A stretch of DNA of 64,000 nt from Mucilaginibacter rubeus (GTDB lineage Bacteria; Bacteroidota; Bacteroidia; Sphingobacteriales; Sphingobacteriaceae). The notes under the pieces are model-generated. The model was not told where the DNA came from. It was given only the letters and a program-made list of their open reading frames with translations, and did not search any database. The stretch lies in NCBI RefSeq assembly GCF_014643835.1, contig NZ_BMKD01000006.1, positions 323,883 through 387,882 of the forward strand, read 5' to 3'. The translations under genes were made by a program, and so were the position numbers. Shown one piece after another: positions 50,063 through 63,900 of this stretch. The first letter of the stretch is position 1. The number at the start of each line of letters is the position of its first letter.

Positions 50063-50505
50063 AGGTATGTTTTTTGGTTTATGACAATTTACATATTTCC
50101 GGGTAAAATACACTTAAGTCATCTGATTTTTACAGGGAATGAAGAGCTTCCTTCTAAAAGAAGCTAAAAACAAATAAGAAAATCGTAATGCGTGAAACGA
50201 AGCCCGGCCCGACCTATAGAGTAGCTCTCCATTGTTTGGGATTGCTTTGCCCATCACAATGAAACCATCATAAGACATTGATTATTAAGCATTTTTTTTA
50301 TCTATTTTATAACATGGACGTTGCCTGCGGCCGGGCTATCCGCTGCAAGTCCTCGCCTTGCCTGCGCACAAACCTAACCCGCGCTGTGGGCTTTACGCTT
50401 CTATCCCTAACGCAGCCCTTGCGAAACACCCCTAAAATATGGTTTATACGCCATCACATTTTTCGATCTGTTTGTAAATACCTTCCGATGCTAAGCTCCA
50501 TTATA
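50063..50505. other. Intergenic region, no gene seen
   Basis: Between the GH92 stop and the oxidoreductase start on the same strand. It contains a GC-rich stretch (50320-50430) of the GGGCTATCCGCTGCAAGTCC type that looks like an intergenic dispersed repeat; the frames across it do not look like protein. The oxidoreductase promoter should lie near 50070-50130. Confidence 0.4.
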
Positions 50506-52797
50506 TCATATCCCCTCAGGTTGATTTACCGGTTTCACTGCCCAGTTATTTCCCGGTTGATCGTTCAGATATATGTCGAGTTTGCCGCCGTTGCTGATAT
50601 CGTTGTAACGGATAAAATTATTGGGCATTATTTTGCCATTCAATTTCACCGAGCGGATATACATTGATTTAGGACCTGGTTTATGACAGATGATCTCAAA
50701 CTTTTTGCCGTTTTGAAGCGTGATAGCAATTTTATCAAACAAAGGTGAACACAACAGGTACTCGCCCGAAACCGGGTTTACCGGGTAAAAACCTATGGAA
50801 GCGAACAGATACCAGGCCGACATTTGGCCGGCATCATCATTTCCTCCCAAACCACCCGGACCATCACTGTATTCAGTGGCCAGGATCTTGCGTACAGCGG
50901 CTTGCGTTTTCCATGGCGATGGCGTATAATCATACATAAAAGGGATCTGGTGCCCCGGCTCATTGCCATGCCAGTATTCGCCTTTTTCAAACAGGCTATC
51001 TAACGACTGTTCCAGTTTCTTCGTTCCACCCATCAACTTTGCCAGGCCGGGGACATCCTGCGGTACATAAAAGGTATATTGACGTGCGGTACCTTCTGTA
51101 ATATAAGTCGCCTTTTTATCCGGATCAAAGGGAGATACCCATGTACCATCAGCATGCTTGCCGCGGACAAAGCCACTTGCAGCATCAAATACATTGGCAT
51201 AATATTTTGCCCGTTTGGTGAGTGTGGTATAATCGGCAGATTTTTTTAAAGCTTTTGCAAATTGCGCCAGCGCGTAATCGTCATAAGCATACTCCATTGT
51301 ACGGCTCACCTGTTCCATTTTATGAAAGGCATCGCGTACGCTATCTTCTAACGGGATATATTGATATTTCAAATAACTATCCAACGCCCTGCGGCCTTTG
51401 CCTTCTACATAATCGGCGCGATTGGCGGGTAGTTCAAAAGCGTTATGCCTTAAAATTTGGTAAGCTTCTTCAGCGTCAAAATCAGTGATCCCCTTTAAAT
51501 AGGCCGAACTGATTACAGAAGCCGTATGATCGCCGATCATTTCGGATGTATAGCTATTCCAGCAGGGGAACACTGGCATCCAGCCACCCTGTTTACCTTT
51601 CAGGATCAGTGATTTTGCCAGGTTATTGATCAAAGATGGGTTCAGGATCTCAAACAGTGGCAACTGTGCCCGGTAAATATCCCACATCGAAAAATCATCA
51701 TAATAATTGCCGTTTGATAATTGTTCCATTTGATAATCGCCGGCAAACCGCGGGTATCTGCCATCAACATCATTAAAAAGACGCGGATGCTGCATGGCAT
51801 GGTAAAATGATGTATAAAAGATCCGTTTATCCTGCTCATTGTTAGTTGAAATGTTGATTTGCCCCAGGGCCTTTTCCCATTTTATCCTACTGCTTTTTAC
51901 AACCCTGTCAAAATCAAATCCCGGCATTTCGGCCTGCAGGTTTTTGCGGGCGCCTTCCAAACTGGTAAACGAAGTGCCAATCCTGATCGTTAGCTTTTCG
52001 CCTTTATTGAGCTTAAATCCGGCATAAATCCCTGTACCTGCATCGTTTTTGATACTATCTGCAATAAATATTTTATTGCCTGCAAAAGTGCCCGTTTTTC
52101 CTAAACTCCGTTCAAACCTGATCACAAAGAAACCGCTGAAACCTGCGCTTTTCCCCCATCCCTGGTAAATACGGTGAGCAGGATTATAGCCCGATATCTC
52201 ACCAGCTTGCTTATCTACTTTTACAAAACCTTCATGATAATCGCTATTGGCTTTGATCAATAAATAAAGGCTGTCGGCCTGCCGCATGGTAAACTGCATC
52301 ATGCCGCAACGCTCTGTGGAGGTTACCGCGGCATTCACTTTATATTGGTTAAGATTGATGCTATAAACGTGAGGAGACGACAGTTCATCAGTATGTTTAA
52401 ATGCTGCACTATAATTAGCTGTTTTTAGCTTGCCTGTGATGGGCATAATGGTAAAGCTGCCATAATCCTGTGTACATGAACCGCTTAGCCAGTGCGAACC
52501 ACGGAGGCCGTTGAACAGGCCGTCCTTATAATAATATGGAGGTACGCACTTGGTTTCGCCGCTCTCGGTTTCGGGTGTCCATTGTGTCATGGCAAAGGGG
52601 GCAGTAACCGCGGGAATGGTATTGGCAAACCGTGTATCAGCCGCTTGTCCATGTTTTAGTGCGGAAGCTGTAGTGGCAATAGCTGTACCGGCCATGGGCT
52701 GTACATATTTAACCAGGTTTTGGGCAAAAACCGGCCACGGAAACAACAAGAAAATGATATAAATAAACCGGTTTGCAATTTTGGAGATGAAATTCAT
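50506..52797 (-). CDS. GH92 alpha-mannosidase-type glycoside hydrolase
   Basis: Exported hydrolase of family GH92, calcium-dependent exo-alpha-mannosidases (alpha-1,2 activity is frequent). Signal peptide 1-25 (IIFLLFPWPVFA). N-terminal beta-sandwich (about 30-270; RGSHWLSGSCTQDYGSFTIM), then the alpha/alpha barrel with the catalytic Glu region HGNEPGHQIPFMYDY and the family mark GGNDDAGQMSAWYLFASIGF. 763 aa is normal. Enzymes of this family cut N-glycans or yeast mannan. The oxidoreductase gene upstream is on the same strand but far, so common control is uncertain. Confidence 0.93.
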   Translation of the reverse strand: MNFISKIANRFIYIIFLLFPWPVFAQNLVKYVQPMAGTAIATTASALKHGQAADTRFANTIPAVTAPFAMTQWTPETESGETKCVPPYYYKDGLFNGLRGSHWLSGSCTQDYGSFTIMPITGKLKTANYSAAFKHTDELSSPHVYSINLNQYKVNAAVTSTERCGMMQFTMRQADSLYLLIKANSDYHEGFVKVDKQAGEISGYNPAHRIYQGWGKSAGFSGFFVIRFERSLGKTGTFAGNKIFIADSIKNDAGTGIYAGFKLNKGEKLTIRIGTSFTSLEGARKNLQAEMPGFDFDRVVKSSRIKWEKALGQINISTNNEQDKRIFYTSFYHAMQHPRLFNDVDGRYPRFAGDYQMEQLSNGNYYDDFSMWDIYRAQLPLFEILNPSLINNLAKSLILKGKQGGWMPVFPCWNSYTSEMIGDHTASVISSAYLKGITDFDAEEAYQILRHNAFELPANRADYVEGKGRRALDSYLKYQYIPLEDSVRDAFHKMEQVSRTMEYAYDDYALAQFAKALKKSADYTTLTKRAKYYANVFDAASGFVRGKHADGTWVSPFDPDKKATYITEGTARQYTFYVPQDVPGLAKLMGGTKKLEQSLDSLFEKGEYWHGNEPGHQIPFMYDYTPSPWKTQAAVRKILATEYSDGPGGLGGNDDAGQMSAWYLFASIGFYPVNPVSGEYLLCSPLFDKIAITLQNGKKFEIICHKPGPKSMYIRSVKLNGKIMPNNFIRYNDISNGGKLDIYLNDQPGNNWAVKPVNQPEGI

Positions 52798-53128
52798 TTT
52801 TCGGACAGCGTATTAACAAAAAAATTTCAGCAAAATACAGCAATCGTTGCTAATTGTTACATGCACGAGTAAAATAATGATGTTATACAACCTGGCCGGT
52901 ACCGATAAACCATAAGGATTAGTTGTTACTGCGCTCCAACCAGCACTGCCACTTCCAACTATTTCAGATAATGGCAAATCTGGCGGGGAATATGTCTAAC
53001 TGAAGTCACCATTTGTCCGGTTCATGCATCAACCACTTCCATAATCCTGGTGCCGGTGTACTTTTGTTATGCCCGATGATGAGGAAAGCATCTGAAGGCG
53101 AATTATTAATCAAACTAATCCGAAAAAC
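52798..53128. other. Divergent intergenic region with AraC-type promoter
   Basis: Separates the GH92 gene (minus) from the alpha/beta hydrolase (plus). Its right part holds the two-repeat activator site and the -7 box given as a separate entry; the rest shows nothing definite. Confidence 0.5.
52991..53066 (+). promoter_or_regulatory. Activator-type promoter: two 21-bp-spaced repeats plus -7 box
   Basis: TATGTCTAACTGAAG (52991-53005) and TTTGTCCGGTTCATG (53012-53026) begin 21 bp apart. The -7 box TACTTTTG (53059-53066) follows after 32 bp, and no -33 TTTG is seen. The same layout precedes the hydrolase at 55560 and DoxX at 55980. Confidence 0.6.
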
Positions 53129-54187
53129 ATGAACAACGAAACAACATTCAGCCGTCGCCGCTTTCTTGGTATCTCCGCATTAACAGTTGCAGCAGCAGAG
53201 TTAGGCGGTCTCGGTATACTTAAAGCAGAAACCAAACAGATAGATTCACCGGCACAGCAAAACAATACTCTTTTTTCTACAGCTTCTTTCGACTCGATCA
53301 AACAGATAAATGCAGGCCTGCTTAATATTGGCTACGCAGAAAGCGGCCCGGCAAACGGACAGCCTGTTATCCTGCTTCATGGGTGGCCATATGATATACA
53401 TAGCTATACTGAAGTATCAGCCATACTTGCCAAAGCCGGCTACAGGGTTATTGTACCTCATTTGCGCGGCCACGGCACAACGCAATTCCTTTCGGCACAA
53501 ACTTTCAGGAACGGGCAGCAAGCTGCAATAGCTACAGATGTTATTGCACTGATGGATGCATTAAAAATAAATAGCGCCATTATTGGTGGTTTTGACTGGG
53601 GCGCTCGTACAGCAAATATCGTGGCGGCATTATGGCCTGAGCGCTGCAAAGCAATGGTTTCGGTAAGCGGGTACCTGATAGGCAGCCAGGAAGCAAATAA
53701 AAAACCACTGCCGCCCAAAGCAGAACTATCATGGTGGTACCAATTTTATTTTAGTACCGAGCGCGGCCAATTGGGCTACGAGGCAAACAGGCGTGACTTT
53801 AACAGGCTCATCTGGGAAACAGCATCACCCAACTGGAAATTTGACGACGCTACTTTCGCTCAAACCGCTCCGTCTTTTGACAACCCTGACCATGTTGTCA
53901 TCGTGATCCATAATTACCGCTGGCGCCTGGGCCTTGCCGAGGGTGAAACAAAATATGACGATATGGAAAAAAAGCTGGCTACCGCACCTCCAATCATTGT
54001 ACCAACTGTAACCCTTGAAGGCGATGCCAATGGCGCTCCTCACCCTAAGCCTGCTGATTATGCCGCGCGCTTTAAAGGTAAATATGCGCATCATACTATT
54101 AACGGTGGCATAGGCCACAACCTGCCCCAGGAAGCCCCTAAAGCTTTTGCTGACGCCATTATAGAAGCCGAAAGCTTTGCCAAATAA
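53129..54187 (+). CDS. Alpha/beta hydrolase, epoxide-hydrolase type, exported
   Basis: Alpha/beta hydrolase with an apparent Asp nucleophile in IIGGFDWGARTANIV (about 150-164), as in epoxide hydrolases and haloalkane dehalogenases; oxyanion loop LLHGWPYDIHS (about 82-92), RGHGTTQF box, and the closing His in GGIGHNLPQEAP. The N-terminus FSRRRFLGISALTVAAAELG is a twin-arginine signal, so it likely works outside the inner membrane. 352 aa. Preceded by an AraC-type activator promoter and followed by a strong terminator, so it is a single-gene unit. Substrate unknown. Confidence 0.9.
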   Translation: MNNETTFSRRRFLGISALTVAAAELGGLGILKAETKQIDSPAQQNNTLFSTASFDSIKQINAGLLNIGYAESGPANGQPVILLHGWPYDIHSYTEVSAILAKAGYRVIVPHLRGHGTTQFLSAQTFRNGQQAAIATDVIALMDALKINSAIIGGFDWGARTANIVAALWPERCKAMVSVSGYLIGSQEANKKPLPPKAELSWWYQFYFSTERGQLGYEANRRDFNRLIWETASPNWKFDDATFAQTAPSFDNPDHVVIVIHNYRWRLGLAEGETKYDDMEKKLATAPPIIVPTVTLEGDANGAPHPKPADYAARFKGKYAHHTINGGIGHNLPQEAPKAFADAIIEAESFAK

Positions 54188-54214
54188 ATAATCCCTCTTT
54201 TTAAATAACACGGT

Positions 54215-54260
54215 AACCAGGATAGGAAATGTTAAAATGCATTTCCTATCCTGGTTTTTT
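54215..54260 (+). terminator. Strong terminator of the epoxide-hydrolase-type gene
   Basis: Perfect 16-bp stem AACCAGGATAGGAAAT (54215-54230) with 54241-54256, ten-base loop, then a T run to 54260. Confidence 0.88.
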
Positions 54261-54700
54261 GTTTACTTAAAAGCAGGTACCCACCCCTGTCTGTCTTTCT
54301 AAAACCCTTTCGCACCCCTGGTGCAATCATCGTTGAGCTCTATCCATTAAAATCTGTTACCGGTATCAAATGCTATAGCGGGAACAAGGTTGCAGAAAAC
54401 AGCCTCCTTCAATGCCCGAATCCCGCCGGGCGGTAACTCAAATTGATTCCTTGAATTTGATCGTTTTATTTATAAGCTAACTAAATCTGCGAGAGTCTGT
54501 GATAGGATAGCAGATAATAAGAAGACGAGTTTGCGTAATGTAAACCTCTCCCGGCCTGACCCACTCCCGCTATGCTACATGCTTGCCAGACTGGTTTTAT
54601 CAACCGGTTCTATGGGTTACCTTAAATCTGCGGAAGAACCTGGTGGAAATCTTAGCGGCATTCAACACCATCATAGCAAAGACTACCGCTCTTCAACAGG

Positions 54701-54731
54701 AAAAGGGGCAGCCGTTAATACGGTCGCCCCT
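54701..54731 (-). terminator. Terminator of the 54.8-55.6 kb hydrolase
   Basis: Stem AGGGGC (54704-54709)/GCCCCT (54726-54731) plus CCGT/ACGG inside, with the T run (plus-strand AAAA 54701-54704) on the minus strand, 38 bp after the stop. Confidence 0.75.
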
Positions 54732-54768
54732 CTTCATCTTTTAGTAAATGAATTAAAATAAGATCACC

Positions 54769-55560
54769 TTATTTTTTTTCAGAACCATTTTTTGCAGCAG
54801 CTTCAATTACACGGGCCACAGCGGCAGCCTGCGATATAAATATAACGTGACTGCCTTTAACCTCTGTAACTACAGCACCGGCACGTTTATACATTGCACG
54901 TTCCAGTTCGGGGTTGATGGCCTTGTCCATGGTGGCTACAATACCATAAGTTGGTTTAGCTTTCCAGGCCGCCTGTGTTAACGGGGCTACGAAGCTCGAG
55001 CCAACAATCGGCTGTTGTGAATCAAACATAAAATCTGATTTCGCTTCAGTCAAATCAGCTGCAAAACATTCGTGAAAGAGCGCTTTATCAAAATATACCA
55101 GGCCATTTTTATCGGCAGGCAGGATACCATTTTTGGCAAGTGCCGGGCCTGACTGATAAACATCCAGGGTCGACTGGCCAACTTCCGGCGCAAAAGCCGC
55201 AACATACACCAAACTTGTTACTTTGGGCGATACGCCGGCTTCGGTAATTACCGAACCGCCCCATGAATGCCCTACCAACACCGCGGGACCATCCTGTTTT
55301 TCCAGGGCGCGATTGGTTGCGGCAACGTCATCATTGAGCGAAGTAAGCGGGTTTTGCACAAGGGTTACGTTGTATCCATCCTTTTTTAATATTTTATATA
55401 CGCCTTCCCATCCCGATGCATCGGCAAAAGCGCCGTGTACTATAACAATGTTCTTTACAGCAGGTGTAGTTTGAGCCAAGCTGTTTTTTGGGCTGAAAGT
55501 AGACAAAAAGACTGCGGCAGCAGCTATTGTTAGTTTGGTAATGTTGATTTGAGTTTTCAT
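54769..55560 (-). CDS. Alpha/beta hydrolase, serine type, exported
   Basis: Signal peptide 1-30 (AAAAVFLSTFSPKNSLAQ), then a compact alpha/beta hydrolase: oxyanion loop IVHGAFADASGWEGVY (about 40-55), nucleophile Ser in VLVGHSWGGSVITEAG (about 96-111) and the closing His in VKGSHVIFISQ. 263 aa. The type is often annotated as a pimeloyl-ACP-methyl-ester-esterase-like or salicylate-esterase-like hydrolase; the true substrate is unknown. The promoter carries the same two-repeat site as the other hydrolase and DoxX. Confidence 0.9.
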   Translation of the reverse strand: MKTQINITKLTIAAAAVFLSTFSPKNSLAQTTPAVKNIVIVHGAFADASGWEGVYKILKKDGYNVTLVQNPLTSLNDDVAATNRALEKQDGPAVLVGHSWGGSVITEAGVSPKVTSLVYVAAFAPEVGQSTLDVYQSGPALAKNGILPADKNGLVYFDKALFHECFAADLTEAKSDFMFDSQQPIVGSSFVAPLTQAAWKAKPTYGIVATMDKAINPELERAMYKRAGAVVTEVKGSHVIFISQAAAVARVIEAAAKNGSEKK

Positions 55561-55587
55561 TTTGTTAAGTATTTATAGATTTACTCC

Positions 55588-55663
55588 CAAAAGTATATTT
55601 CAACTTGCCGCATACCGATCTCAAGTGCTTCAACCCGACAAAGAAGTCTCCGAACCGGACATT
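55588..55663 (-). promoter_or_regulatory. Activator-type promoter of the serine hydrolase
   Basis: On the minus strand AATGTCCGGTTCGGA (55663-55649) and TTTGTCGGGTTGAAG (55642-55628) start 21 bp apart, then 32 bp, then TACTTTTG (55595-55588), 28 bp before the ATG. Spacing and box are identical to those at 52991-53066. Confidence 0.62.
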
Positions 55664-55873
55664 TCAAACATTAAAAAAATTGGGACCAGCCATTGCATGT
55701 TAATATTTAACAACATAATAAAAATCCGTCTTTCCGACCCCGCCGTGTTTAGTTTATAGGCCTATCACCGGGATCGCTGCAATCATTATCTGAGTGATAG
55801 AAAACTTTAAGGCAGGCTTTAATCAACGTATTGAAGCGGTTTACATCAATGACCTATGGAAGTCGGGGTCCGG

Positions 55874-55950
55874 ATTGTCCGGCCGGGAGCTTAGTTTGTC
55901 TGCTTCATCCCGAAAGTGGTTAGATATCCGTTGATTTTGCCACAATTTTG
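55874..55950 (+). promoter_or_regulatory. Activator-type promoter of DoxX
   Basis: ATTGTCCGGCCGGGA (55874-55888) and TTTGTCTGCTTCATC (55895-55909) start 21 bp apart, followed after 33 bp by CAATTTTG (55943-55950), one base off the -7 consensus, 29 bp before the ATG. Confidence 0.55.
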
Positions 55951-55979
55951 AGCCATCAAACAACTCAAAACTACATATC

Positions 55980-56375
55980 ATGACAACAAAAACAGTAAAA
56001 ACAATCTATTGGATAGGAACAGCATTGACTTCATTATGGTTTGCAGCAAGCGGATTTGGCGAGCTGACCAAAAACCAGTTTGTGTGGGATATCACCTTAA
56101 AACTGGGCTATCCTCCGCATTTTATTTATATCCTTGGTGTCGCTAAACTTTCGGGAGTAGCAGTTCTTTTAACACCTAACAGATTGCTTAGATTAAAAGA
56201 ATGGGTATTTGCAGGTATTTTCTTCGATATTATATTTGCTTTTTTGTCTAAAATCGCTGTACTCGGTTTTCCCGCCACCATAGATGCCATTGTTGCATTT
56301 ATCATGGTAACGGTTACCTACCTGATGTTCCGTAAACTTTATCCGGCTACATACGCAGCCGCTGCCGCTGTATAA
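55980..56375 (+). CDS. DoxX family membrane protein
   Basis: 131-aa inner-membrane protein with four predicted helices (about 9-26, 45-65, 75-95, 100-120). IYWIGTALTSLWFAASGFGE and GVAKLSGVAVLLTP are typical of DoxX-like proteins. Members are linked to redox and thiol-stress complexes in other phyla; the role here is open. A shared activator-type promoter links it to the two alpha/beta hydrolases. Confidence 0.88.
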   Translation: MTTKTVKTIYWIGTALTSLWFAASGFGELTKNQFVWDITLKLGYPPHFIYILGVAKLSGVAVLLTPNRLLRLKEWVFAGIFFDIIFAFLSKIAVLGFPATIDAIVAFIMVTVTYLMFRKLYPATYAAAAAV

Positions 56376-56436
56376 AATGCTAAGTTGCAGCAGGCCGGTT
56401 CATAATACATCGGTTATTTCAGGCTTTAAGCAATCT

Positions 56437-56469
56437 CAAAAGAGGCTATCCCACAGGTAGCCTCTTTTG
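56437..56469. terminator. Bidirectional terminator
   Basis: Perfect 12-bp stem CAAAAGAGGCTA (56437-56448) with 56458-56469, nine-base loop, T or A runs on both sides, between the convergent DoxX and thioesterase genes. Confidence 0.8.
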
Positions 56470-56526
56470 CATGCATGCTACCGTGCCGCATGATTATCCG
56501 GCAGGGGCAGGCGCTCTGCCGGTCGC

Positions 56527-56943
56527 TTAATCTTCAAGAACAGGGGCATCCTTTATTTTTTCCAATACCGAGGCCGGTAAATACGGTCTGCCGCCTGTTG
56601 CCGGCACACAGGTGCCCGTAAATACAGCTTTGGTCATTACCTTATTGTTGCATATAATAGATTGTTTAAAGTGCAGCTTTGGCAAGCCCCCTTTATCAGT
56701 ATACAAGGTGCAGGTAACTTTAAATTCATCGCCCTTTTTTAGTGATCTGAGAAAGCTGATGCTATAGTTTGACAGTACCATGTAAATGCCGTTTTTAGCT
56801 TCGGTTTCAAAATCAAACCCCAATATTTCCCTGATATAATCATGCCTGCAATATTCCATATAAAACGGATAATATAAACCATCCATGATCTCCTGTACAT
56901 CTATATGCTCATCTTTGGCAATATAGGTTTTTGAGTATTCCAT
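56527..56943 (-). CDS. Acyl-CoA thioesterase (hotdog fold)
   Basis: 138-aa hotdog-fold thioesterase of the 4-hydroxybenzoyl-CoA/YbgC group, which hydrolyses acyl-CoA thioesters in the cytoplasm. The helix after MDGLYYPFYMEYCRHDYIRE and the strand MVLSNYSISFLRSLKKGDEF fit the family. A catalytic Asp is not certain: the usual DxxxHV motif reads MDGLYYPFYME here. Promoter box TAGCTTTG on the minus strand at 56976-56969, 26 bp before the ATG. Confidence 0.82.
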   Translation of the reverse strand: MEYSKTYIAKDEHIDVQEIMDGLYYPFYMEYCRHDYIREILGFDFETEAKNGIYMVLSNYSISFLRSLKKGDEFKVTCTLYTDKGGLPKLHFKQSIICNNKVMTKAVFTGTCVPATGGRPYLPASVLEKIKDAPVLED

Positions 56944-57046
56944 AATAATTAACCTTTTTGTTGGATTGCAAAGCTATTGAACCTTTTGGTTTCAGGAAAC
57001 GGGAGATCTGAATTTTAATGGATCAGTCCGGGCTGTGTCAAATAAA

Positions 57047-57108
57047 AAAGCCCCAATTGTTTGTGAGGCTTTGCTCCTGAGGCTGGGCTCGAACCAGCGA
57101 CCCTCTGA
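57047..57108 (-). tRNA. Truncated tRNA-Asn 3' half with its terminator
   Basis: 57073-57108 is identical over 36 bp to the 3' half of the tRNA-Asn at 60835-60870 (from the anticodon stem through T arm and acceptor), but the 5' half is missing, so it cannot give a tRNA. A tRNA-style terminator (stem 57047-57052/57067-57072, then T run on the minus strand) follows. It looks like one end of a tRNA integration site. Confidence 0.75.
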
Positions 57109-57313
57109 CTGTTAGGCTTAATTTCATTGAAAACAGGTAATTCAATTCCGCGCTCTTATCGGAGATCAATGATTCCAATCCCATAACCGCATTAGCGATG
57201 CGTTGCACTATTGATATAATAGCTAACGAGGCACTGATACAAAACATCAATTATAAAAAGTTAATATTTCCATAACAGCTTTTTTGGGTGGTTATAGATG
57301 TAAATTAATTATG

Positions 57314-57350
57314 ACGATCCGGACATCACTCCGGGAATGTCCGAGTCGGA
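57314..57350. promoter_or_regulatory. TGTCCG site before the islet AraC gene
   Basis: AATGTCCGAGTCGGA (57336-57350) agrees at 13 of 15 positions with the upstream repeat of the 55560 hydrolase promoter; ATCCGGACATC lies about 22 bp upstream. GTCCGAGTCGGAC is itself palindromic. TAGATTTTG at 57374-57382 may be a -7 box. Possible autoregulation site. Confidence 0.45.
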
Positions 57351-57575
57351 CACAAAAAAATTAAAGAAATAATTAGATTTTGATAGTTGAGAACTAAATA
57401 AAATCTGAGTGTAACAAAATATGATGGGAAAAATAATAGAATACCTAAGCCTTAATTTAAATATACAATGCCCGACTAATTCAATTAATTAATAATGTTG
57501 AGGATTTAGGCTTTAAAAACGTGTCGCTATCTACCTTGTTAAAAACATTAAGATATAAAATCCATATTTTTAAAC

Positions 57576-58559
57576 ATGACTTTTGAATTTACGGTGCAGG
57601 CAGGTTTTAATTTTGTCAAAAGCTTTGGCAACCATTTTAATATTCCCGTTTTCAAGAATGAACTGAAAATTCCGCCGCATATGGGCGAAGGTCACATTAA
57701 GGCGATTGATGTAGCACCCGGCTTTAAGTTCGTATTGCATCATTATACTTTGAAAGAGGAATTTCATTTAAAGCGTAAGTCCCCCGCTGAAGTCAGTGAT
57801 TTGATCTCCATTGTATTCAACAGTAATGAGCTACCGGCAGGATCTGCCGTTGACCGGGAAACGGCAGTAGAATTTTTAAAGAAGAACGGGTCGTCAATCC
57901 AAATCGCCTCCACCGCTATATCCACCGAAACTATTTTTCCCGCCAATGTCGAGGTCTATTTTGGTGTCATTGGCATCAAGAGGCAATTGCTTTCCGACAT
58001 CCTGCGGGTAGACCAGGTTAATGGTCCTTTGGAAACTATTTTAAATAGCGATAATCTATTCTTCTATCATGAAAAGATGTACCCGGATGTGGCGAGGGTT
58101 TTGAAGCTTGTTTCGGAGATCAACGAACAAAATAAATTGAGCGAGCTGTTTTATAGTAACAAGGCGCATGAGATGATCTACCTGTTGTTTGATAAACTGC
58201 TGGAAAGGGACAGCGACAAACAAAGTCCTGTTAACAAAGCTGATATAGATAAATTATACCTGATCAGGACTGCTGTACTGGCTGACTTGGGTCAGCCACC
58301 TCATTTAAGCGAACTTGCAGCCAATGCCGGCCTGAGCGAAACAAAAATGAAGCATTTGTTTAAGCAGACCTTTGGCGATACTATTTATAACTTTTACCAG
58401 AATGAAAGGATGCAGGAAGCCGGCTTTTTATTAAAACATGCGGGTTACTCCGTTTCTGAGGCTGGTTACCGGCTTGGGTTTTCGAACCTCAGCCACTTCT
58501 CACGGCTTTTCGAAAAACACTTTGGAACCACCCCCAAAAAATACACGCTTGTCGGATAG
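57576..58559 (+). CDS. AraC family (PchR-like) regulator
   Basis: 327-aa regulator with an N-terminal sensor part of the PchR-like kind (about 1-215, APGFKFVLHHYTLKEEFHL, VYFGVIGIKRQLLSDIL) and a C-terminal AraC domain (about 225-325: PHLSELAANAGLSETKMKHL and EAGYRLGFSNLSHFSRLFEK). It opens the islet and is followed by the alkene reductase and oxidoreductase genes. The TGTCCG repeats at 53-58 kb are plausible targets; AraC proteins favour such 21-bp-spaced direct repeats. The 5' leader is long if the -7 box near 57374 is used. Confidence 0.9.
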   Translation: MTFEFTVQAGFNFVKSFGNHFNIPVFKNELKIPPHMGEGHIKAIDVAPGFKFVLHHYTLKEEFHLKRKSPAEVSDLISIVFNSNELPAGSAVDRETAVEFLKKNGSSIQIASTAISTETIFPANVEVYFGVIGIKRQLLSDILRVDQVNGPLETILNSDNLFFYHEKMYPDVARVLKLVSEINEQNKLSELFYSNKAHEMIYLLFDKLLERDSDKQSPVNKADIDKLYLIRTAVLADLGQPPHLSELAANAGLSETKMKHLFKQTFGDTIYNFYQNERMQEAGFLLKHAGYSVSEAGYRLGFSNLSHFSRLFEKHFGTTPKKYTLVG

Positions 58560-58637
58560 GACTATTTTTCGGGCTTGAGGCGCTATTTTAACCGTCATAT
58601 CCTGCGGACATTTGACATATCAAATAAAACAAACGAT

Positions 58638-59708
58638 ATGAAAAAGTTACTGATGCCCTATACCAGCCAGGCACTGAAATTAAAGAACCATTTAGTGATG
58701 GCACCCATGACCCGCAGTCGTGCTATTGACAACCTGCCCAACGCACTTATGAAAGAATATTACAGTCAACGCCGCGGGGCCGGGCTGATCATTACCGAGG
58801 GAACTGCTCCTGCACCGGAAGGCCTTGGTTATGCCCGTATCCCCGGCATATTCTCCAATGAACAAATTGAAGGCTGGAAATTAACCACCGGTGCCGTACA
58901 CCAAAACGATACAAAAATATTTGTGCAGCTGATGCATACAGGTCGTATCGGCCACCAGGCTAATCTGCCGGAAGGTGCGCATGTGATTGGTGTGTCTGCT
59001 ATTCCGGCAGCGGGGCAAATGTATACCGATAACGCAGGTATGCAGGATTATCCTGTGCCTGTAGTATTATCAACACAAGGGGTAAAAGAGGTGATTGGCC
59101 AGTATGTCACCGCCGCAAAAAATGCAATAGCTGCGGGTTTTGACGGCGTGGAACTGCATGCTGCAAATGGCTACCTGATCGAACAATTCCTTAACCCTAA
59201 CGTTAATGACCGTACCGATGTTTATGGCGGAAGTATTGAAAACAGGTCCAGATTTGCTATTGAAGTTGCAGAACAAGTAGCAGAAGCGATAGGTAAAGAA
59301 AAAACAGGTGTAAGAATTTCGCCTAACTCTACCCTTGGCGACCTGCAGGCTTATGAGGCAGACACAACCGAGGAAACATACATTTATTTAAGCCGGGAGT
59401 TTAACCGGATCGGCCTGGCCTATATCCACATCAGTCTCAGCCCGCAGGTTCCAGCACAAACCTTAAACGCCATCCGTACCGAATTCGAAGGAACGCTCAT
59501 TTACTGCAATACCTTTACTGCCGAAGGGGCTGAAGCCGAACTGGATAAAGGAGATGCAGACCTGATCGCATTTGGTAGGGGATTCCTGGCCAATCCCGAT
59601 CTGGAACAGCGAATCATCCATGGCTCAGAACTGAATGCCCCTGACTTTACCACCCTTTACACACCGGGCGCTAAAGGCTATACAGATTATCCGGTATTAT
59701 TTAATTAA
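58638..59708 (+). CDS. Alkene reductase (Old Yellow Enzyme family)
   Basis: FMN-dependent NAD(P)H oxidoreductase that reduces activated C=C bonds of enals, enones or nitro-compounds. (beta/alpha)8 barrel: LVMAPMTRSRA (FMN site), VQLMHTGRIGHQANLP, the substrate pair in GVELHAANGYLIEQFL, NDRTDVYGGSIENRSRFAIE and IAFGRGFLANPDL. 356 aa from ATG at 58638. GACATTTG (58607-58614) may be the -7 box. Together with the oxidoreductase behind it, a role in electrophile or quinone detoxification is likely. Confidence 0.93.
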   Translation: MKKLLMPYTSQALKLKNHLVMAPMTRSRAIDNLPNALMKEYYSQRRGAGLIITEGTAPAPEGLGYARIPGIFSNEQIEGWKLTTGAVHQNDTKIFVQLMHTGRIGHQANLPEGAHVIGVSAIPAAGQMYTDNAGMQDYPVPVVLSTQGVKEVIGQYVTAAKNAIAAGFDGVELHAANGYLIEQFLNPNVNDRTDVYGGSIENRSRFAIEVAEQVAEAIGKEKTGVRISPNSTLGDLQAYEADTTEETYIYLSREFNRIGLAYIHISLSPQVPAQTLNAIRTEFEGTLIYCNTFTAEGAEAELDKGDADLIAFGRGFLANPDLEQRIIHGSELNAPDFTTLYTPGAKGYTDYPVLFN

Positions 59709-59726
59709 TTCAATAAGAGATCAAAA

Positions 59727-60667
59727 ATGAAAAAGATAGTTTATCATAAATTCGGCAACGCCGATGTGTTGGAAATGACCGATACAGTTATTCCAGAGGT
59801 CAGTGAAACAACAATCCTGATCAAGGTCAAAGCAGTCTCCATCAATCCCCTGGACTGGAAGATAAGAAACGGCGAAATGAAATTAATGTCAGGCAGCAAA
59901 TTTCCAAGAGGCACCGGTATCGATTTTTCAGGTATAGTTGAGGCAACCGGTAGTTCCATTAAAAACTATAAAGAAGGAGACGAAGTATACGGCCTGCTTG
60001 ATGTTTTTAAAGGGGCGGCTTTAGCTGAATATATTATTGCAGAGGAAAAAGATATTGCAACTAAACCCATGGGAATTTCTTTTGAGCAGGCGGCCGCCGC
60101 GCCGGTGGTAGGCTCTGCGGCGATCCAGCTGTTCGATACCTTAGTCAATATTCAAACCGGCTCGGAGGTGCTGATCAATGGTGCTTCCGGAGGAATAGGC
60201 ATGTTCGCCATACAGATTGCCAAAACGAAAGGAGCCACCATTACAGCCGTTGTAAGTGATGGTGGCTTAAAGGCAGCAAAAGATTGGGGCAGTGATTTTG
60301 TAATTAACTACCGCAAGGAAGATGTTCTTAAAGCCGGAAAGCTTTACGATGTGGTGATCGATCTATCTAATCAAATGTCTTATAGTGTTGCAAAAAGATT
60401 ATGAAGACTTCTTCTGTCTATGTGCATACTGCTCCGGGGCCAAAAGAGATCGTTTCCGCTTTTTTCATCAGTCTTTTTTCACCCCAAAAATATAAGGTCC
60501 TCATGCTTAAACCTTCGCAGCTATATTTAAAAGAACTTAAAAGATATATAGAAGCGGGACTTTCTGTCTTAGTCAGCAAGGCTTATTCCTTTGATTCATT
60601 TAAAACTGCTTACGCTGAGGCTCCTAAAGCGCACATCGTCGGAAAATCAGTAATCAGGGTTAATTGA
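59727..60667 (+). pseudogene. NAD(P)-dependent quinone-oxidoreductase-like gene, frameshifted
   Basis: Zinc-free medium-chain dehydrogenase/reductase (quinone oxidoreductase type). The GroES-like part (MKKIVYHKFGNADVLEMTD, SINPLDWKIRNGE, GTGIDFSGIVEATG) and the Rossmann loop (VLINGASGGIGMFAIQIAKT) are intact, but the first frame stops at 60402-60404 after SYSVAKRL. The rest of the enzyme (from MKTSSVYVHTAPGPKEIVSA to AHIVGKSVIRVN) continues in the -1 frame from 60401. Adding one base after TTA would restore one protein of about 314 aa. It may be a real mutation, a sequencing error or a coupled split gene. Confidence 0.8.
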
Positions 60668-60793
60668 AAAAAGTCAAACCGATAGGGGATGATCACTGAA
60701 ATAAAAGGTCATAATTACCGGCAAAATAGCGATTCCGATAAGCCATTTTTTTTCGACTATCGAAAAAGTATTCAAATTTTATGAAAATAAAAA

Positions 60794-60817
60794 AACCCCA
60801 CTCGCCAGAGTGGGGTT
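60794..60817 (-). terminator. tRNA-Asn terminator
   Basis: Perfect 10-bp stem AACCCCACTC (60794-60803) with 60808-60817, four-base loop GCCA, then a T run on the minus strand, 19 bp after the tRNA 3' end. Confidence 0.88.
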
Positions 60818-60835
60818 AAATCATTGATTTTAAGG

Positions 60836-60909
60836 CTCCTGAGGCTGGGCTCGAACCAGCGACCCTCTGATTAACAGTCAGATGCTCTAACCGGCTGAGC
60901 TACTCAGGA
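60836..60909 (-). tRNA. tRNA-Asn (anticodon GTT)
   Basis: Complete 74-nt cloverleaf on the minus strand: acceptor TCCTGAG/CTCAGGA with discriminator G, D arm with AGCTCAGCCGGTTAGAGC, anticodon arm CTGACTGTTAATCAG giving GTT, and T arm with GGTTCGAGCCC. CCA is not encoded. Its 3' half is duplicated at 57073-57108. Confidence 0.96.
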
Positions 60910-60996
60910 GTGTTGTCCGGTTGGGGATTGCAAAAGTATAATTTTCATTGATATTTTGCAATTTTATTCAACTTGTTATATCCTGCTGTTTCAGGG
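60910..60996. other. Short gap between tRNA-Asn and the hybrid sensor
   Basis: Holds TTGTCCGGTT at 60915-60924, a half-site like those at 53-56 kb, and AT-rich DNA with ATTTTCATTGATATTTTGCA. The tRNA promoter must be here. Confidence 0.35.
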
Positions 60997-63900
60997 CTAC
61001 GTGGTACTTGTATTCTTCCCTGCCCATTTTACAAGTTTTTTAACCAGGTCATCTAATTTAAATGGTTTGCTTATATAATCGTCCATACCTGCATCTATAC
61101 AAATTTGCAGATCGGATTGGAGGGCATTGGCCGTCATCGCTATAATAAAAGGCCGTTCCGGGAAACGCTTCTTTATTATTCGCGTAGCTTCCAGGCCATC
61201 CATTTTGGGCATTTGTACATCCATTAAAATAACATCGAATGTTTTTTTATTAACCAAATCCAGTACCTCCAGGCCGTCTGCTGCCAAAGCGGCTTCATAT
61301 CCTAACTTACTCAATATCTTCATGATCAGTTTTTGGTTCATCTGGTTATCTTCGGCAACCAAAATCCTCAATGGGTAACTTTCTGAAAAATTATCAGGCA
61401 GTTTATGATTTGCAGTATCGCTGTGCAGCGACTCATGAGTGGCAGAACTTACATGCTTGCCAAGTTCCTTTATAATGTGCTTGTATAAGTTATGCTGTTT
61501 TGCAGGTTTGGTTAGTATAGAACAAAACAAACCGGGGTTATCTTTATGGAAAACATAGCTGATGGAGCTCAACAGCATTATAGGTAATTCGGGGTATTTG
61601 GCCCGTATTAAGGTTGCCAGTTCAATCCCATCCATAAAGGGCATTTGCATATCGGTAATAACAAGCTTAAAATCATGCTGCTGCTGCGCCAGGATCTCAA
61701 GAGCCTGTTCGCCTGATTTGGCTACTACCGGGCTTAGTTGCCACTGCTCCAGTTGAGCCTTTAAAATTCTGCAATTGGTATCATTATCATCAACAACCAA
61801 AATTTCGCTCTTTTCAAAACCCTGCATGGTATGGTTTATTTGTACAGGGTCCTGTAGTAAACTTTTTTGCGAGTGAATAGAAAACCTGAACGTACTTCCT
61901 TTGTCAACTTCACTTTCTACACTGATTTTGCCGCCCATTAATTTTACAAGTTGTTCACTTATAACCAGGCCAAGGCCGGTACCTCCGTATTGCCGGGTGG
62001 TTGATGAGTCAACCTGCGAAAATGCTTTAAATAGCCGGTGCAGCTTATCGGCAGAAATACCAATGCCGGTATCTTTTATCTCAAAGCCTAATTCGATTTG
62101 GTTATCATCTGATATGCTGAGCAAATGCACGGCTACATAAATTTCACCCTTTTTGGTAAACTTGATAGCGTTACTGATTAAATTGATCAGGATCTGGCGA
62201 AGCCTTAAACTATCGCCAATAATTTGCGCCGGTACATCATAGTCAATCTGGTAAACCAGGTCCAGCTTCAGGTGGGCGGCTTTTAGGGCAAAAACATCAA
62301 AAACCTCTTCAATACAGGTACGCAGGCTAAAATCCTTTTCCTCCAGCTCCATATTGCCCGATTCTATTTTCGAAAAATCTAAAATATCGTTAATCACCGC
62401 CAGCAGGTCTTCGCCGCAGGTTTGTATGGATTCGGCAAAAGTACGCTGCTCTTCATCCAAAGGAGTTTCGGCCAGTAACGACGCCATCCCGATCACCCCA
62501 TTCATAGGTGTGCGGATCTCATGGCTCATGGTAGCCAAAAATATGCTTTTAGCCTTGTTAGCCTCCTCGGCCTCGAGGGCTAATTTTTTTTCAACTTCTA
62601 TGGCACGGGCCAGCTGCCCGGTACGTTCTTTCACCTGGCGCTCAAGCTCGGCCTTTTGCTTTAATATAGAACGTGTACGGATAAGATAAAATGCCGGGCC
62701 GCTGATTATAAAAATTAACGCTACAATTAATTTAAACCACCAGGTAAGCCAAAAAGGAGGCTTAATGTTGATGATGATAAATGTGCCTTTGTTATTCCAT
62801 TTGCAATCATTATTTGATGCCTTAACCCTGAATGTATAACTACCCGGATCAAGGTTGGTATAAGTGGCCGTTCTTTTATTGCCAACATAATTCCAATCTT
62901 TATCAAACCCTTCCAGCTTGTAGGCATATTGGTTTTTTTCGGGAATGGTATAATTCAGGGCCGCAAACTCAAATGTAAGTACCGACTGTTTGTAAGATAG
63001 GTTTATGGAGTCTGTTTCGCTGATATCTTTTTGAAGCGGGGAGTTTTTAGCCCCGGCGTTTACCTCCTTATTGAAAATCTGCAGCCCGGTAATATAAACA
63101 GGAGGGACAAAGTCATTATCTTTTAAACTATCGGGATAAAAAGTACTGAATCCGTTTACGCCGCCAAAAAACATTTCCCCGTCGGCAGTTTGAAAACAGG
63201 AATGGCCTTTAAATTCATCTCCCTGCAATCCGTCAGAAATGTCATAGTTTCTGATGGCTTTTGTTTTGGGATTAAACCGCGAGATCCCCTTGTTGGTGCT
63301 TAACCAGAGGTTACCTTTGCGGTCTTTCAAAATCGCATAGATCACATTATTAGGCAAACCCTCTCTTTCGGTGTATATAGTAAATGTTTGGTTATGCTTG
63401 TTAAACAGGTTAAGGCCGCCGCCGTTGGTACCTATCCATATATCACCGTTATCGGTTTCGATAATCGACTCGACAGTGTTGTTTGATAAGCTGCGTTTAT
63501 CCCTCTCATCGTGCGTGTAGTGCGTAAAGCGGCCTGTTTTAGGGTTAAATACATTCAACCCGTTATCATCAGTGCCTATCCACATATTGCCCTGTTTATC
63601 CTGAAACACTGCTGTAACAATATCACTGCTTATGCTGTTGTTATCTTCCGGGTTGTTCCTGTACCGTGTAAAGAGACCGGTTTTTACGTTATAATGATTA
63701 AGGCCCCCTTTCCAGGTCCCTAACCATATATTGCCGTCACGGTCTTTATACATATTGTTGATATCTGAAAGGGAGAGGCTACGCGGATTATTTGCCTGGG
63801 GCATGTGATGTGTAAAGGCTCCCTTTTTTTTATCAAACAGGTCAAACCCGCCAATATGATAACCAATACCAATAACATCTTTATTTATTGGCACTATGGC

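Follow-up and report, generated by a model that had tools for sequence, protein, structure and literature searches.

Three promoters in a 64,000-nucleotide stretch of Mucilaginibacter rubeus DNA (contig NZ_BMKD01000006.1, positions 323,883 to 387,882; the whole 64-kb stretch is called the window below), preceding two alpha/beta hydrolase genes and a gene for a DoxX_2 membrane protein, share two direct half-sites 21 bp apart, which are followed at a nearly constant distance by a -7 box. We read these repeats as tandem sites of a LytTR-family response regulator that would be phosphorylated by a LytS-type kinase and would activate a set of genes for defence against oxidants or electrophiles, a reading to which we assign a probability of about 0.83. 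The regulator is most likely encoded elsewhere in the genome, and not by the nearby AraC-family gene at 57576 that a preliminary description of this DNA had put forward as the activator.

Paired half-sites and promoter geometry

The half-site and -7 box coordinates were taken straight from the window sequence, and the pairs were also scored with a matrix. The -7 box was taken as -12 to -5, the consensus for Bacteroidota sigma-A promoters being TAnnTTTG in the available part of PMC9723704, and the predicted start positions follow from this numbering:

52991..53005, + strand: first promoter, upstream half-site TATGTCTAACTGAAG; pair matrix score 27.7
53012..53026, + strand: first promoter, downstream half-site TTTGTCCGGTTCATG, 21 bp from the first; the sites also precede the orthologous gene in loci L111, L127 and L128
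53059..53066, + strand: first promoter, -7 box TACTTTTG, 32 bp after the second half-site; start predicted at ~53071
55649..55663, - strand: second promoter, upstream half-site AATGTCCGGTTCGGA; pair matrix score 21.6
55628..55642, - strand: second promoter, downstream half-site TTTGTCGGGTTGAAG
55588..55595, - strand: second promoter, -7 box TACTTTTG, gap of 32 bp; start predicted at ~55583
55874..55888, + strand: third promoter, upstream half-site ATTGTCCGGCCGGGA; pair matrix score 33.9
55895..55909, + strand: third promoter, downstream half-site TTTGTCTGCTTCATC
55943..55950, + strand: third promoter, -7 box CAATTTTG, gap of 33 bp; start predicted at ~55955

The half-site period is 21 bp at all three promoters, and the coordinates together with the independent matrix confirm the arrangement first described, namely tandem half-sites with a -7 box 32, 32 and 33 bp beyond them. 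The preliminary description had also given both half-sites one 15-bp consensus; the pair and its spacing are borne out, but the two half-sites differ from each other, the upstream one tending in the DoxX promoters of relatives to ATTGTC[TC][AG] and the downstream one to TTGTCC[GA]NTT[CG]A, and the half-site at 52991 fits the proposed 15-mer loosely. The matrix was trained on DoxX promoters from other genomes, 31 after thinning and 59 before, with the window excluded. Over the 64 kb it returned exactly the three sites, with a runner-up at 8.2; 60 first-order Markov windows gave no site of at least 18 and 0.03 per window of at least 15 (maximum 17.8). The independent part of this test is the two hydrolase sites, the DoxX site being homologous to the training set. 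A search with a single 14-base consensus allowing up to three mismatches is weak when taken alone (14 matches in the window vs 8.07 expected), and the significance rests on the pair plus its spacing. One further match, TTGTCCGG at 60913, adjoins a tRNA-Asn gene and has no partner in the matrix scan; we treated it as chance.

The pair, which we call the tag, is conserved well beyond the window. Upstream regions of 200 bp were examined at the 80 best of 184 DoxX orthologue loci, all from named genomes, and a TGTCY...TGTCC pair was present at 21-bp spacing in 49 of them, at none of the other spacings from 10 to 43 bp, and once at 44 bp. The 49 loci comprise 19 from Flavobacterium, 10 each from Mucilaginibacter and Chitinophaga, and the rest from Chryseolinea, Paraflavitalea, Dyadobacter, Filimonas, Pinibacter, Flavihumibacter and two further lines. 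A much looser pair occurs at the 21-bp period in 77 of the 80 loci, of which a few may be chance, since loose pairs at other spacings occur in 1 to 12 loci each.

The promoter geometry was measured on 194 sites scoring at least 18 over the fetched loci, thinned to 99. The TTTG core of the -7 box begins 50 bp past the second TGTC in 57 of these and 49 bp past it in 19 (76/99 together); 80 of the 99 have a TTTG start in the range of 40 to 52 bp, where mononucleotide-shuffled sequence averaged 4.8 and never exceeded 12. From the second half-site to the -7 box, TTTG counts stay at 6 or fewer of the 99 sites at every offset, with no peak at -33; these promoters thus do not include a -33 element, whose absence, already remarked at the three window promoters, extends to the thinned set. 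A TTG lies 18–33 bp upstream of the -7 core in 23 of the 80 sites. With the numbering used above, the half-sites would lie at about -79 to -69 and -58 to -48. The tagged promoters thus have the marks of activator-dependent sigma-A promoters, with a -7 box, no -33 element and a fixed spacing to an activator-like site; like other Bacteroidota sigma-A promoters most of them carry TAnnTTTG or YAnYTTTG at a fixed place, and unlike them they show a rigid 49/50-bp link to the activator-like site instead of a -33 TTTG peak.

A candidate kinase-LytTR pair

When the neighbours of the 80 DoxX loci were clustered without bias, the largest families encoded DUF1223 proteins (36 loci), a LytTR regulator (35), a kinase (34), OsmC proteins (30) and a hydrolase (29), the best AraC cluster reaching 10. 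With the identity cut set at 45%, 36 of the 80 loci have the regulator no more than 6 kb from DoxX, 20 of them in Flavobacterium, 15 in seven further genera and 1 in a further member of the Flavobacteriaceae. The one regulator scanned against Pfam (locus L114) matched PF00072 at 51.8 bits and PF04397 at 51.7 bits, both above the cut-off; the kinase at the same locus matched PF06580, and its reading frame overlaps that of the regulator. Each tagged kinase gene is followed by an overlapping open reading frame (ORF) of one kind, 253–267 residues long, which is a LytTR response regulator in the one scanned. A PDB search with the regulator gave receiver-domain matches only, among the best 60 of 87. 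In the genome nearest to that of the window, G001, whose promoter locus is L111, the regulator orthologue is 68% identical and has the LytTR domain; it lies ~3 Mb away from the tagged promoters.

Tag and regulator also occur together across genomes. In 100 genomes of one genus (taken as Mucilaginibacter) a reversed-pattern control counted more matches than the pattern itself, owing to base composition, so matches were compared by spacing instead: at spacings of 18 to 24 bp there were 9, 11, 8, 61, 8, 8 and 18. Of the 61 matches at 21 bp, 46 are in regulator-bearing genomes and 15 in others. Counted by genome, a 21-bp match is present in 23 of 26 genomes bearing the regulator (at least 63% identity) vs 13 of the 74 others (Fisher p 1.4e-10). 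Fifty-eight of the 61 matches were placed against ORFs (the remaining 3 are in L146, L147 and L149), and those that fall in promoters number 38 of 43 from regulator-bearing genomes and 4 of 15 from the others; among the 62 matches at other spacings, none of 10 sampled was cleanly promoter-placed. In a second genus (taken as Flavobacterium) the regulator is present in 47 of 260 genomes. The matches listed there number 51, from 15 regulator-bearing genomes; the 27 that lie 10 kb or less from the regulator are all at 21 bp and fall in 12 of the 15 genomes, and of the 24 listed elsewhere in these genomes 6 are at 21 bp. A wider search of the class (1e-75 cut, 6 candidates scored per genome) found the regulator in 7 of 396 genomes, a figure that is not to be taken as a distribution.

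The operon of the pair is often tagged itself: a site scoring at least 15 stands just upstream of it in 12 of 26 orthologue loci (at least 63% identity), and in none of 4 loci with relatives of 53–57% identity, so that self-tagging is common and not general. In genome G589 three sites surround the regulator, before doxX, a hydrolase gene and a 137-aa gene, and at ~4.78 Mb (L200) the genome has a cluster of doxX, osmC-like, DUF1223-like, hydrolase and kinase-LytTR genes. Mutations in co-evolution lines of F. johnsoniae fell in the LytTR gene FJOH_RS09515 (lines 2 and 5) or in the neighbouring kinase gene (lines 1, 3 and 4), according to the available part of PMC10197871. We rejected FJOH_RS09515 as the regulator: the orthologue in G589, which we take as F. 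johnsoniae UW101, is at 4.78 Mb and RS09515 is expected, from its locus-tag number, near 2.2 Mb, and codon 16 of the orthologue is Leu, which does not match the G46A change given in that part of the paper. The orthologue lies ~50 kb from a TetR mutation which the same part places at 4,734,734.

In the mechanism we propose, a signal would lead the LytS-type histidine kinase (PF06580, ~340 aa) to phosphorylate the regulator (receiver plus LytTR DNA-binding domain, ~253 aa), a dimer of which would bind both half-sites on one face of the DNA and recruit RNA polymerase to promoters whose -7 box is good but which lack a -33 element. This would activate the genes for DoxX, epoxide-hydrolase-like and other alpha/beta hydrolases, an OsmC-type protein, a DUF1223 protein, catalase and a haem-binding/cytochrome P460 protein. 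The kinase-regulator operon would join these targets in about half of the examined genomes, which would amount to positive feedback.

LytTR response regulators of the AgrA kind, which include ComE and VirR, offer the closest parallel: here too a PF00072 plus PF04397 regulator is partnered by a LytS-type kinase, and tandem direct repeats of period 21 stand upstream of the core promoter. Unlike theirs, the half-sites here read TGTC[CT][AG] and TGTCC[GA]NTTCA, the core promoter is a Bacteroidota -7 box without a -33 element, and the targets look like detoxification genes and not virulence or competence genes. As described in the available part of PMC11347149, LytTR sites are pairs of 9-bp direct repeats 10–13 bp apart, mostly upstream of -35 in activators, and the period of 21 lies within the range of 19–22 that this spacing gives. 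Our system also has the other marks of a LytTR two-component regulon, the receiver and LytTR domains and a kinase in the same operon.

Tagged genes and the AraC insertion

The three tagged genes of the window are:

53129..54187, + strand: alpha/beta hydrolase, epoxide-hydrolase-like, with a twin-arginine-like N-terminus (RRRFLG); Pfam Abhydrolase_1; match to 5bov, 'Putative epoxide hydrolase protein' (E 3.8e-135)
54769..55560, - strand: alpha/beta hydrolase with a signal-peptide-like N-terminus; Pfam Abhydrolase_6; 97% identical orthologue in G001
55980..56375, + strand: DoxX_2 membrane protein, the most widely found tagged gene; Pfam DoxX_2; 80 orthologue loci

A PDB search with the 54769 product gave weak matches. 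Over all fetched loci 151 of 160 sites had a downstream ORF, and clustering of these 151 rows (136 distinct places, given in brackets where they differ from the rows) yielded DoxX 78 (72), the 53129-type hydrolase 23 (22), the haem/P460 protein 11 (8), the kinase 10 (8), DUF1223 6, the 54769-type hydrolase 6 (4, including the window), OsmC 6, a 152-aa protein 3, catalase 3 (2), epoxide hydrolase 3 and two singles. Pfam was run on a single representative of each main family, and the set includes OsmC, catalase, EHN epoxide hydrolase, a Haem_bd/Cytochrome_P460 protein, DUF1223 and DoxX. Because of these families and the 5bov match of the 53129 product, the tagged set looks like a defence against oxidants or reactive electrophiles. 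The earlier suggestion of one set of co-tagged promoters, serving detoxification-like genes, is supported. The system may be read as an undescribed LytTR-activated defence regulon: as had been proposed, no description of it was found, here in the titles or abstract openings of open-licence literature on DoxX, OsmC, DUF1223, AraC and LytTR regulons.

The AraC-family gene lies close by on a segment of its own:

57576..58559, + strand: AraC-family gene (PF12833), on an insertion at tRNA-Asn; judged to be outside the system

Identical 36-bp repeats stand at 57073–57108 and 60835–60870, the second being the 3' end of tRNA-Asn (60834–60909). Window positions 50503–57108 and 60835–62000 map in G001 to adjoining stretches that overlap by the 36-bp repeat alone; the AraC, Oxidored_FMN and alcohol dehydrogenase genes between the repeats are therefore an insertion (57073–60870, 3.7 kb), absent from that site in G001. 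No integrase-sized extra ORF was noticed among the listed ORFs of the insertion. Its alcohol dehydrogenase (59727–60667) seems to consist of two overlapping ORFs in different frames (59727–60404 and 60401–60667), which looks like a frameshift, and ahead of the AraC gene a 15-bp palindrome, TGTCCGAGTCGGACA at 57338–57352, looks like an operator that has nothing to do with the 21-bp tandem.

Competing regulators and the wider LytTR families

AraC-family activators also use direct half-sites ~21 bp apart, about two helical turns, and the earlier view of the tag as a tandem activator-like site with that spacing holds. That the 57576 product or a close relative activates the three promoters is nonetheless very improbable. 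No other regulator gene noticed in the window is nearer, and 35 of the 80 loci have some AraC-type ORF no more than 6 kb from DoxX, but these ORFs fall into 16 clusters, the largest in 10 of 80 loci, and relatives of 57576 itself are that close in 2 of 80. G001 lacks the insertion at that site and keeps all three promoters (L111; scores 34.8, 19.1 and 26.3), and no relative at E 1e-40 or better was found there among 22 of 78 candidates scored. Nor do relatives go with the tag: at E 1e-40 they occur in 29 of the 100 genomes, in 9 of the 36 with the 21-bp tag vs 20 of the 64 without it (p 0.65), and close relatives (at least 67% identity) occur in 4 of the 100, all without the LytTR regulator and one with the tag.

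Within the LytTR family, two other readings would account for the same sites. A different paralogue, or several regulators of overlapping specificity, might bind them: there are 27 LytTR domains in G001 and 21 in G589, and a second kinase operon (L171, L174, L182) as well as TolC-like genes (L161, L164, L169, L178) have a similar TGTCCATTTCA-type tandem upstream. We consider this unlikely, since the regulator of 63–100% identity is the one that adjoins the tagged genes and co-occurs with the 21-bp matches; still, because those related paralogues seem to use a similar tag, the assignment to the LytTR family is surer than that to the exact paralogue. Alternatively, the regulator might repress these promoters, its signal relieving repression, as in the LytTR repressor CoxC; in the account of CoxC given in the available part of PMC11347149 its site overlaps the -35 box, but here the half-sites lie further upstream and there is no -33 element, which fits activation and makes repression rather less likely again.

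A further line of support for a LytTR regulator comes from 40 other LytTR operons, 26 of G001 (all but that of this system) and 14 of the 21 of G589. Upstream of these the best 12-mer self-match averages 8.48 at lag 21 vs 7.55 (sd 0.16) at lags 10–59 without 20–22, and 9 of the 40 reach a 10/12 self-match at lag 21 vs a mean of 1.4. This supports the LytTR assignment and does not prove it.

Several observations count against activation by this LytTR regulator, beyond the similar tag of its paralogues. The lag-21 signal, clear in G001, is weak in G589 and equalled there by another lag, and 594 control promoters drawn from these loci show a mild rise at lag 21 too (7.72 vs 7.38, sd 0.11), perhaps from included genes of the regulon or of other LytTR systems. 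No LytTR gene was seen in the 64-kb window, and we infer the regulator's presence in the window's own genome from G001. The strict pair was found in none of 7 Pedobacter and one of 7 Dyadobacter DoxX promoters, and in 6 of the 7 Dyadobacter loci no regulator lies within 6 kb of DoxX. Three of the 26 regulator-bearing genomes (G021, G043, G107) lack a strict match, and the 63% identity cut-off behind that comparison was chosen after the identities had been seen, 11 genomes with relatives of 41–57% only being scored as lacking the regulator. Just upstream of the regulator operon there is no site of at least 15 in 14 of 26 orthologue loci; at L118 and L120 the tag stands before a haem-protein gene that the kinase gene follows, and the kinase of G589 has no site before it. 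Finally, the site of the 54769 hydrolase is confined to the window and close relatives (L001–L004 of 30 fetched loci, 89–97% identity).

Beyond this system, the other LytTR operons in G001 and G589 (L231–L270) favour a lag-21 self-repeat, for example L249, L256 and L259, each with different half-sites. The second kinase operon, which in G046 and G118 stands beside a LytTR regulator 40–41% identical to ours, and the TolC-like genes have their TGTCCATTTCA-type tandem at 21 bp, and may perhaps form a sister LytTR regulon for efflux. Given the lag-21 signal in the 40 operons and this second, TolC-linked set of sites, we offer as a tentative generalization, which we hold to be somewhat less probable than its opposite, that many Bacteroidota kinase-LytTR operons are preceded by a 21-bp-period repeat of their own; such repeats, with the 49–50 bp to TAnnTTTG, might then allow the regulons of dozens of uncharacterised systems to be read from sequence.

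Soil and water Bacteroidota carry many LytTR systems, as the count of domains in G001 illustrates. The one considered here corrects a plausible but wrong assignment of a regulator from gene proximity. Its targets, its site, the geometry of its promoters and a candidate regulator can all be named, and they persist from Mucilaginibacter to a genome taken as F. johnsoniae UW101, a species amenable to genetics; the regulator, its signal and its regulon are therefore directly testable.

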